Source: Halothermothrix sp. (lineage in GTDB: Bacteria; Bacillota; Halanaerobiia; DY22613). Taken from it: a stretch of 64,000 nt of DNA. The position numbers and the translations under genes were made by a program. The stretch's first letter is position 1, and each line of letters begins with the position of its first letter. The DNA is taken from NCBI GenBank assembly GCA_016841825.1, contig JAENYK010000016.1, forward strand, positions 1-64,000, written 5' to 3'. The notes beneath the pieces are model-generated. The model made no database searches and was not told where the DNA came from. It saw nothing but the letters and a program-made list of their open reading frames with translations. Positions 44,239-46,465 of this stretch are shown piece after piece.

Positions 44239-44550
44239 AGACTCTCTCCTTATCTCTCATTTTATTTAGTTTATCAAAATTACTCTCCTTAATACCTACC
44301 GATCTTCTTTCATTAGATACCTATCTATTACTCCTAATTTTAACAATATCCTTTATTTTTAGCCATCCAGTAAGACTTAATCTATAACACTTATTACGTT
44401 TTGTAACGATTATCAATGAGCTACTTTTTTCCCATTTTATATATTTATTTTTTTCATTACGCAGGACTTATAGCTTTTTTGCAGAATTATAATTTTATGG
44501 AAATGGGGTGAAGTAAGATATTTAACATCTATAACGGGGAGGTGATTTTA
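44239..44550 (+). other. divergent intergenic region upstream of the peptide cassette
   Basis: A 312-base A/T-rich gap that separates the minus-strand DUF456 gene from the plus-strand cassette and must hold promoters for both. A TATAAT hexamer is seen at 44488-44493 but its -35 partner (GACTTA at 44465-44470) is poor. No other structure was found. Confidence 0.4.
44465..44493 (+). promoter_or_regulatory. candidate promoter of the peptide cassette
   Basis: TATAAT at 44488-44493 lies 17 bases after GACTTA at 44465-44470 and 58 bases before the first peptide start. The -35 match is weak, so the promoter may need an activator or the true one lies elsewhere in the gap. Confidence 0.3.
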
Positions 44551-44655
44551 ATGTTAAATACCTGGAATTTGAAAGATTTTGACTGGAGCATTGAGACTGC
44601 CAGTAGAGAATGTTATGGCGTTGAGCCACCAATCGAATTTGAAAATAACTATTAA
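44551..44655 (+). CDS. RiPP-type precursor peptide 1
   Basis: A 34-residue peptide, first of four tandem near-copies. It starts MLNTWNLKDFDWSIETASRE and continues CYGVEPPIEFENNY. Residues 1-7 and Asp11-Trp12 are identical in all four copies, as are Thr16-Ala17, Cys21-Tyr22-Gly23 and Pro27. GGGGAGGTGA precedes the ATG at seven bases. The conserved first half looks like a leader bound by a modifying enzyme, and the second half like the core, with one Cys and one neighbouring Tyr as likely targets. A radical SAM/SPASM gene follows the fourth copy. No homologue is named from memory; the precursor call rests on copy number, pattern and context. Confidence 0.78.
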   Translation: MLNTWNLKDFDWSIETASRECYGVEPPIEFENNY

Positions 44656-44693
44656 TCTAACTAATCTAATCGCTATACAAGGAGGTGAATTTG

Positions 44694-44795
44694 ATGTTAA
44701 ATACCTGGAATCTGAAAGATTTTGATTGGAGCACTGAGACTGCCAGTAAAGAATGTTATGGCGTCGAACCACCAATCGACGAATTTGTATATTAA
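44694..44795 (+). CDS. RiPP-type precursor peptide 2
   Basis: A 33-residue peptide almost identical to the first: MLNTWNLKDFDWSTETASKE, then CYGVEPPIDEFVY. The differences are Ile14 to Thr, Arg19 to Lys and a changed C-terminal end (DEFVY). AAGGAGGTGAATTTG lies directly upstream. It starts 38 bases after the previous stop. Copies 1 and 2 share most silent positions too, so their duplication is recent. Confidence 0.78.
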   Translation: MLNTWNLKDFDWSTETASKECYGVEPPIDEFVY

Positions 44796-44831
44796 TCGAG
44801 CAACTATAATTCTTATAAGGAGGTGATTCGA

Positions 44832-44933
44832 ATGTTAAATACCTGGAATCTAAAAGAATTTGATTGGACTATCGAGACAGCAGGTGCAGTATGTTACGGG
44901 GCTAAGCCTCCTCTTGATGAATATGAATTATAA
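44832..44933 (+). CDS. RiPP-type precursor peptide 3
   Basis: A 33-residue peptide: MLNTWNLKEFDWTIETAGAV, then CYGAKPPLDEYEL. The leader-like part differs only at Asp9 to Glu and Ser13 to Thr, but the residues before and after the Cys-Tyr-Gly have changed (GAV, AKPPL). AAGGAGGTGA is upstream and the gap to the previous gene is 36 bases. Confidence 0.78.
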   Translation: MLNTWNLKEFDWTIETAGAVCYGAKPPLDEYEL

Positions 44934-44969
44934 TTGACGAGTCAGGTTTTTTATAAGGAGGTGAATTTG

Positions 44970-45071
44970 ATGTTAAATACCTGGAATCTGGAAGCTTATG
45001 ACTGGAACACTATAACAGCTACCGCTCCTTGCTATGGAACACTTCTACCTCTTCCTCCATACGAATTTTAG
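44970..45071 (+). CDS. RiPP-type precursor peptide 4 (most diverged)
   Basis: A 33-residue peptide: MLNTWNLEAYDWNTITATAP, then CYGTLLPLPPYEF. Leader residues 1-7, Asp11 and Trp12 are unchanged while most other positions differ, and Tyr replaces Phe10. Thr16-Ala17, Cys21-Tyr22-Gly23 and Pro27 remain. AAGGAGGTGAATTTG precedes it. It is the copy nearest the radical SAM gene. Confidence 0.77.
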   Translation: MLNTWNLEAYDWNTITATAPCYGTLLPLPPYEF

Positions 45072-45215
45072 TAAAAAATAAGTAATCTACATAGCATTCA
45101 CCCCATTTCCTTTCCAAAAAATTAGCAGATAGTTATCCATATTCAGAGTACAGCTACTGGTGATCAAAATTTTTTATTTTTTATGTCTCAAATATAATAT
45201 AAGGAGGAAAAATAC
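45072..45215 (+). other. spacer between peptide genes and radical SAM gene
   Basis: A 144-base non-coding gap, four times the spacing between peptide genes. It has a T-rich stretch (TTTTTTATTTTTTATG, about 45170-45185) preceded by only weak stem potential (AGTA...TACT), so partial termination that favours precursor over enzyme is possible. A TATAAGGAGG ribosome site for the enzyme ends it. Confidence 0.4.
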
Positions 45216-46262
45216 ATGAATTATTACCCACGTAAAGTAGTCTGGGAACTTACTAATGCCTGTAATGCCAAATGTATCCATTGTGGTTCTGAATCTGGCC
45301 CGAAACGGGCTAATGAAATGCCTGTAAAAGATGCCTTACGGGTCTGTGATGAATTGGGTGAATTGGGAACCAAACATGTTACCTTAATTGGAGGAGAGTG
45401 TTTCTTGAGCCCTTATTGGGACAAAGTATGTGAACGACTACTCGAAAACAATGTTCAAGTTACCCCCCTCAGTAACGGTATTTTACTGAATGAAGCTAAC
45501 TTACAATTAATGAAAAAAATTGGCCTCAAAGGTGTATCTGTCAGTATTGACGGTATTGGTGAAACCCATGACTATATTCGGGGAGTACCAAAGATGTTTG
45601 ACAAAGTTATTTCAAATATTAAGCAAGCTCAACATTTGGGATTTGGGGTTGGAGTTAATACCTCTGTTTCTAAGGTTAATATCCACGAATTACCTGCACT
45701 ATATTATTTCCTCAGAGAATTGGGTATCAAAATTTGGCAGGTTCAGATTGTTGAGGATATCGGTAAAGCTACCCGCAACACTGAATTAAAACTCGATCTG
45801 GAAGATCTGTATCAGATCGCCAAATATGTCGCCGAATTCCGTAAAAAAGAGGGTATGCGAGTCATCGTCGGTGATAATGTAGGCTTTTATGCTTCTTTTG
45901 AACCTATGATCCGTGAGCAACCTTTCACAGGCTGTTCTGCCGGAAGATGGACACTTGGAATTGAATCAACTGGTAATGTTCGTGGATGTCTCTCTGTTTT
46001 AGGAACAGACGAGAATACTGAGGGTAATCTCCGGGAAAGATCCCTTATTGACATCTGGAATGACCCGGAACTCTTTGGCGTTTACCGACAGCGAACTGTG
46101 GACAAATTGGAAGGTTTTTGTGCTGAATGTGAATTTAACAACCTTTGCCGGGCAGGCTGTTCTTCCCTATCTTATGCTTTAACTGGCAGCTTTTATGAAA
46201 ATCCTTTCTGTCTACATAAATATGAAGTTGAGCAGGGAATAGTTGAACAAAAAATGGCATAG
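45216..46262 (+). CDS. radical SAM/SPASM peptide maturase
   Basis: A 348-residue radical SAM enzyme. The cluster motif is Cys16-xxx-Cys20-xx-Cys23 in TNACNAKCIHCG, followed by the SAM-binding GGE segment (LIGGECF, about 58). The C-terminus has a complete SPASM motif: Cys240, Gly253, Cys258, Cys302, Cys305, Cys311, Cys315 and Cys332, in the exact CX(12)GX(4)C...CX2CX5CX3C...C order that binds two auxiliary Fe-S clusters. Such enzymes install thioether, C-C or other bonds in ribosomal peptides. No PqqD-like recognition domain is visible. AAGGAGG precedes the ATG. Directly upstream are four precursor-like genes, the presumed substrates. A terminator follows at 46308. Confidence 0.92.
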   Translation: MNYYPRKVVWELTNACNAKCIHCGSESGPKRANEMPVKDALRVCDELGELGTKHVTLIGGECFLSPYWDKVCERLLENNVQVTPLSNGILLNEANLQLMKKIGLKGVSVSIDGIGETHDYIRGVPKMFDKVISNIKQAQHLGFGVGVNTSVSKVNIHELPALYYFLRELGIKIWQVQIVEDIGKATRNTELKLDLEDLYQIAKYVAEFRKKEGMRVIVGDNVGFYASFEPMIREQPFTGCSAGRWTLGIESTGNVRGCLSVLGTDENTEGNLRERSLIDIWNDPELFGVYRQRTVDKLEGFCAECEFNNLCRAGCSSLSYALTGSFYENPFCLHKYEVEQGIVEQKMA

Positions 46263-46307
46263 TTTTTCAAAACGATAAGTTTGGTTCACATAACAATATA
46301 TTTAATA

Positions 46308-46336
46308 CAAAGCCCCGTTACAGGGGTTTTATTTTT
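46308..46336 (+). terminator. terminator of the peptide cassette
   Basis: AAAGCCCC and GGGGTTTT form an eight-base stem with one G-U pair around a short loop, followed by ATTTTT. It lies 46 bases past the radical SAM stop and closes the cassette. Confidence 0.75.
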
Positions 46337-46465
46337 AATCCAACTATCTGATCAGCGGGTCTATAAACAAATTTAAAGATTCCTTTGCTAATTAACTGAG
46401 TAAAAAGTATTTCTATGACATAATCTAATTTTACAGATTGAACATTAATTGTGGCAGGTGAAATT

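Follow-up and report, generated by a model that had tools for sequence, protein, structure and literature searches.

The window, the whole stretch of 64,000 nucleotides analysed here, contains a tandem array of four peptide genes (44551-45071) that encode 33-34 residues each, every one with its own GGAGGTG site, and a radical SAM/SPASM gene of 348 codons that lies downstream of the array on the same strand. The array and the maturase gene probably encode RiPP precursors and a stand-alone splicease-like enzyme that splices tyramine out of them at Tyr22. All four peptides would be such precursors, with Tyr22 as the modified residue. As we infer the reaction, the maturase would recognise the N-terminal M-L-N-T-W-N-L leader, with its W-N-L segment as the recognition element, and would most likely use a 5'-deoxyadenosyl radical to attack Tyr22. 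Excision of the tyramine portion of this residue, a net loss of C8H9NO (135.07 Da), would join Cys21 to Gly23 via an alpha-keto group, and the resulting ketoamide could serve as a protease-inhibiting warhead, as for reported spliceotides. The calculated masses of the untagged, full-length peptides 1-4 are 4109.845, 3926.769, 3816.805 and 3817.805 Da, and this loss would bring them to 3974.777, 3791.701, 3681.737 and 3682.736 Da. The X-Tyr-Gly (XYG) motif and the splicing chemistry of PlpX are reported in excerpts of three papers (PMC10533398, PMC11002830, PMC10373908), and protease-inhibiting spliceotide products are mentioned in excerpts of two (PMC11117315, PMC10373908). The features of the region are as follows.

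44499-44512, + strand: long-range inverted repeat around the precursors, 5' arm GGAAATGGGGTGAA, complementary at 14 of 14 positions to 45097-45110
44551-44655, + strand: precursor peptide 1, 34 aa; GGAGGTG ribosome-binding site 44538-44544; Cys-Tyr-Gly codons 44611-44619
44694-44795, + strand: precursor peptide 2, 33 aa; ribosome-binding site 44681-44687; Cys-Tyr-Gly codons 44754-44762
44832-44933, + strand: precursor peptide 3, 33 aa; ribosome-binding site 44819-44825; Cys-Tyr-Gly codons 44892-44900
44970-45071, + strand: precursor peptide 4, 33 aa, the copy noted in the preliminary description; ribosome-binding site 44957-44963
45030-45038, + strand: Cys21-Tyr22-Gly23 codons of copy 4, a predicted X-Tyr-Gly splice motif that fits the XYG reported for PlpX
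45097-45110, + strand: same inverted repeat, 3' arm TTCACCCCATTTCC, located 3' of precursor 4 and 5' of the maturase gene
45216-46262, + strand: radical SAM/SPASM peptide maturase, splicease-like, 348 aa; Shine-Dalgarno sequence AAGGAGG at about 45201-45207
46309-46330, + strand: weak terminator-like hairpin 3' of the maturase gene, from a consensus scan

The terminator-like hairpin is weakly supported, as three such sites were found and 1.4 are expected in shuffled sequence. An Rfam scan of 44240-46450 gave no match, a tRNA search found none within the 64-kb window, and the window precursors match no Pfam or NCBIfam family. The preliminary description concerned 45001-45071, which is the end portion of copy 4 only; the codons at issue there are Trp12 (45003-45005), Cys21 (45030-45032) and Tyr22 (45033-45035).

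All four window copies carry [F/Y]10-Asp11-Trp12, Cys21-Tyr22-Gly23 and Pro27, as had been described. The codons for Asp11, Cys21, Tyr22, Gly23 and Pro27 differ synonymously between the copies while the amino acid is kept, and codons 18-20 and 24-26, which flank the Cys-Tyr-Gly motif, have diverged. Because the neighbouring codons have diverged and the motif changes are synonymous only, conservation in the array looks like the work of selection, beyond shared ancestry or simple recent copying.

Across the genome the pattern narrows to the tyrosine. A search with the leader pattern M-[I/L/V]-[N/D]-x(1-2)-W-[N/D/E]-L, which is common to the whole set, gave 15 precursors, and a backward control pattern gave no matches. 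Four of these precursors are in the window, three each are at the paralogous loci L002 and L003, one each is at L004, L005, L006 and L007, and one is an orphan on another contig; the 11 outside the window thus represent six paralogous loci and the orphan of the same genome. Tyr occurs at leader Trp+17 to +20 in 15/15 and is the sole core residue common to all, and the next-commonest residue in that interval occurs in at most 6/15. When post-leader residues were shuffled, with one precursor per locus, Tyr was kept at all seven loci in 1 of 20000 shuffles, over an offset range picked after the sequences were seen. The word "invariant", applied earlier to Trp12, Cys21 and Tyr22, thus holds for all three within the array and for Tyr alone genome-wide: Cys is present in eight precursors and absent from seven, and the Trp+7 position (Trp12 of the window copies) is W, Y, F or V. 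Tyr is followed by Gly in six precursors, by Met in five, by Cys in three and by Ser in one, and Cys-Tyr-Gly in 4/4 window copies stands beside Gly after Tyr in 6/15 genome-wide.

The maturase matches Pfam Radical_SAM (1.1e-21) and SPASM (3.2e-7), and its NCBIfam matches are TIGR03913, the GDL peptide maturase (3.2e-73), and TIGR04103, the nif11-class peptide maturase 3 (1.4e-72). Presumably TIGR04103 corresponds to the InterPro family of PlpX. Both scores lie far under the curated cut-offs (246.8 of 591.75 bits for TIGR03913; 244.5 of 725 bits for TIGR04103), and membership in either equivalog was rejected, for TIGR04103 on the score and on precursors without a Nif11 leader match, for TIGR03913 on the score and on precursors without a Pfam match (the DUF1843 criterion). 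Six paralogs of the maturase are encoded in the genome at 54-58% identity, the next genome match being at 31%, and each of the seven maturase loci has its own leader-sharing small precursor or precursors. In an NCBIfam scan that took in the window maturase and five paralogs (L007 was left out), TIGR03913 and TIGR04103 were the top two families for every enzyme, at 209-260 bits and all under the cut-offs; the next family for these six scored 157-179 bits, 55-98 bits lower than whichever of the two ranked first.

A maturase tree of 52 rows places the seven paralogs in one clade (100/100). The 44-row group that unites them with TIGR04103, GDL and further relatives is split (99/99) from eight SPASM proteins of the window's own genome, outgroups that are long-branched and come from a single genome. 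W174, Q175 and Q177, the WQxQ signature, are present in 44/44 splicease-like rows and 0/8 outgroup rows, and C16, C20, C23, C240, C258, C302, C305, C311, C315 and C332 are present in 44/44; the window maturase has the radical SAM CxxxCxxC motif and seven SPASM cysteines. Within the paralogs, L004, L005 and L006 group together (98/90) and have the motifs PYG, PYG and PYS, L003 and L007 (100/98) have YMP, and the window and L002, whose grouping is weak (80/24), have Cys adjoining Tyr. Clade and motif shifting together would look like what is expected of enzyme-substrate pairs with changed specificity. At E<=1e-70 the maturase was found in 1/59 genomes of its class, and TIGR03913 at E<=1e-65 in 1/398 genomes of the phylum sample, in both cases the window's own; comparison with close relatives was therefore impossible.

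TIGR04103 scores over its cut-off in 13/244 sampled Cyanobacteriota genomes, and precursors with LYG, MYG or IYG are present at 13/13 of these loci. On plasmids, six of 39 matching records were inspected and a motif-bearing peptide was found nearby in five: DUF1843 peptides of Azospirillum and Aureibacter have LYG, PYG, MYM, LYA and MYA, an Agathobacter peptide has MYG, and a Nostoc Nif11 peptide has LYG. In the Tropicibacter plasmid record no motif peptide was identified near the enzyme gene. Relatives on genome contigs comprise 29 loci, 23 of them good matches (32-36% identity). Fourteen of the 23 adjoin a protein with xYG or xYA, with repeated motifs in nine (up to six KYG), and one has a neighbour with repeated YYI/YYV; in the other eight no xY[G/A] neighbour was seen, two of them having Tyr-less LAG-repeat proteins and two lying near contig ends. 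No chance control accompanied the choice of these neighbour motifs, which was made by eye and by pattern; where a membrane protein has a single motif, the match may be accidental. Thermoplasmatota (archaea) precursors beside relatives have YYG or FYG, and LYG, MYG, PYG, KYG, MYM and MYA are among the motifs seen beside the related enzymes of archaea, cyanobacteria, Azospirillum and Bacteroidota.

Several neighbouring proteins have features of their own. In gut-type uncultured bacteria (L011, L013, L014, L018, L020, L021, L026 and L028), repeated KYGANIGC, LYGIPTP and VYAYIPP-like segments adjoin the related enzyme, and these repeat proteins are apparently multi-site substrates. Repeat proteins at L017 (3527) and L019 (3515) adjoin a related enzyme that is divergent; their repeats read PPLAGLIAPP instead of x-Tyr-Gly, and this branch may do different chemistry. 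In the DUF1843 "GDL" peptides (L102 3046-3746, L103 3293-3748, L106 2659-3372), LYG, PYG, MYM, LYA or MYA lies close to the N-terminal end; DUF1843 itself may thus act as a scaffold for splicease substrates.

The preliminary description had proposed that a SPASM enzyme acts on Cys-Tyr-Gly and could form a Cys thioether or an aromatic cyclophane. Action by the enzyme, inferred from adjacency, and Tyr22 as a key site both stand; the proposed chemistry is not supported. In the thioether form of that proposal, the sulfur of Cys21 would bond to a carbon close by, in the backbone or in a side chain, as in sactipeptides or ranthipeptides, which we consider highly improbable, though for this array taken by itself a thioether is still conceivable. 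A donor Cys is conserved within the array, with synonymous codons in 4/4 copies, and the SPASM cysteine set of the maturase is complete, but seven of the 15 precursors handled by the same enzyme clade have no Cys, and no acceptor is fixed. These precursors led us to reject Cys as a family-wide modified residue and speak against the sactipeptide/ranthipeptide assignment, and the W, Y, F or V at position 12 led us to reject Trp12 as a cross-link site. The maturase scores far lower for every family that forms thioethers or cyclophanes than for TIGR04103 and TIGR03913; StsB, the highest-scoring of the thioether families, reaches 78-107 bits in the scanned enzymes, against 209-260. The relatives of the maturase have substrates with x-Tyr-[G/A/M] motifs in common. 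An AlphaFold2 model of the maturase (pLDDT 93.1, pTM 0.90) matches SuiB, SkfB, anSME, CteB and PqqE. The best solved match by sequence is SkfB, a sactisynthase and so a thioether former, which speaks for the thioether form; since the best solved matches include both SkfB and SuiB, the fold does not discriminate between SPASM chemistries. No solved splicease was among the matches in the fold search lists, which are uninformative in this respect. The model aligns with SuiB from SuiB residue 101, so the N-terminal peptide-binding extension is absent from the maturase, a further point against thioether formation.

Another Tyr-centred radical reaction that retains tyramine, such as cyclophane formation, a C-C or C-O cross-link, oxidation or epimerisation, is unlikely. 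Like tyramine excision, it would fit the conservation of Tyr. The variation at the next position (G, M, C or S) suggests rules looser than XYG, and no source consulted describes the clade's own reaction; against this, no partner residue at a fixed distance is conserved, and the splicease is the nearest characterised family. PQQ-type cross-links join Tyr to a Glu four residues before it, and mycofactocin precursors end in Val-Tyr. Glu at Tyr-4 occurs in 0/15 precursors and a C-terminal Val-Tyr in 1/15 (window precursor 2), and both types were rejected. Tyramine excision itself has points against it, among them the scores far under both curated cut-offs, the small share of precursors with Gly after Tyr, the solved matches that include a thioether former, the eight relatives where no xY[G/A] neighbour was seen, and the long-branched outgroups of the tree. 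A view centred on Tyr alone must also accommodate the ten Cys residues tabulated among the 15 precursors, every one of which is at Tyr-1, Tyr+1 or Tyr+2, so Cys near the motif Tyr may matter too. One refinement, which overlaps with tyramine splicing, has the neighbouring Cys set the mature product: the thiol would add to the new ketone, with a six-membered thiohemiketal possible for Y-C cores, or would be eliminated in C-Y-G cores. The position of all ten Cys residues speaks for it, but it comes from chemical reasoning alone, Cys is missing from nearly half of the precursors, and in C-Y-G cores the ring would be four-membered and strained; we regard it as quite improbable.

A further point against tyramine excision concerns the partner protein: at none of the seven loci was a PlpY-like gene seen next to the maturase, and one Nostoc PlpY candidate, the single query of a genome search run without a positive control, gave no match. 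A broader proposal, in which the lineage has expanded to seven PlpY-free, single-protein spliceases that act on precursors of about 33 residues, accept any of Gly, Met, Cys and Ser at the position that follows the excised Tyr, and place a thiol beside the ketone to give new cyclised sulfur heterocycles, would be an unlikely outcome on present evidence. Among the listings that literature searches gave, we recognised none on this cluster; the splicease survey of Scott et al. 2022 (Chem) may already list the family.

Complementary arms enclose the precursor arrays at the window, L003, L004, L005, L006, L007 and the orphan; their sequences differ between loci, and complementarity of each arm to its own partner is kept. 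Besides the window, the arm-bearing loci are also listed as L039, L040, L041, L042, L043 and L100. Over seven loci, with the three L002 units left out, the cognate assignment of arms is the single best of 5040, and over all ten arm units 8 of 20000 random assignments equalled the cognate pairing. The arm score was reached by 7 of 500 shuffles at the window and by 24 of 500 at the orphan. Because the arms vary between loci yet stay complementary, with some G-U pairs among the locus-specific pairings, they most likely form a long-range RNA stem that would hold the precursor cistrons inside and leave the maturase outside; a DNA-level role is possible.

Other genes lie near the paralogous loci. 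B12-binding radical SAM proteins of 488-494 aa (L040 6212-7693, L042 5387-6868, L043 8730-10193) adjoin precursors at three of the seven loci, which suggests an extra tailoring step such as methylation. The orphan precursor (L046 / L100; G000 contig C2, about 115901) has a YMPSEPP core. No maturase was found in the 3-kb locus L046 around it, and in L100 an ORF of about 900 aa near it resembles, by eye, part of a non-ribosomal peptide synthetase. Clo7bot-like and CcpM/RumMC-like maturases, both under cut-off (L038 10493-11805 and L042 3006-4460), are each the neighbour of a splicease-like locus, two such loci in all; RiPP systems of different kinds thus lie clustered in the genome.

If tyramine excision is correct, the window and its paralogs offer very short natural substrate-enzyme pairs for this backbone reaction, with no partner protein found, and a compact tool to install ketoamides in peptides. 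The seven co-diversified pairs in one genome would be a natural test of what determines specificity at X and at the +1 position. The splicing reading also shifts the search from a Cys thioether to a 135 Da loss at Tyr22.

Among known systems, the PlpX/PlpY splicease of Pleurocapsa (TIGR04103 type) resembles the window cluster in its radical SAM/SPASM enzyme, which HMM scores and the tree show to be related, and in an X-Tyr-Gly precursor adjoining the enzyme gene. In contrast to that system, the window maturase has 348 rather than about 420 residues and falls under the TIGR04103 cut-off; its precursors are 33-residue peptides with a short leader that is not of the Nif11/NHLP type, no PlpY was found, X is Cys, and in the precursors of the paralogs Tyr is followed by M, C or S. 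The GDL maturases (TIGR03913) that accompany DUF1843 peptides on Azospirillum plasmids are the family with the best HMM match to the window maturase, and their tandem small precursors have PYG, LYG or MYM. In those precursors the motif stands at the N-terminus and the remainder is DUF1843, whereas the window peptides begin with an unrelated leader, and the window maturase is under the cut-off and lacks the C-terminal extension of the GDL enzymes. In Gastranaerophilales-type bacteria, a related maturase (33-36% identity) adjoins KYG/MYG/VYA repeat proteins, which are large and multi-motif, unlike the single-motif peptides of the window. SkfB, CteB, CcpM and RumMC, the maturases of sactipeptides and ranthipeptides, have the radical SAM/SPASM fold in common with the window enzyme; they differ in belonging to other HMM families, in the N-terminal extension that is absent here, and in that window-type precursors have no conserved Cys. 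From these comparisons of sequence we read the window cluster as a putative variant of the known splicease/spliceotide kind.
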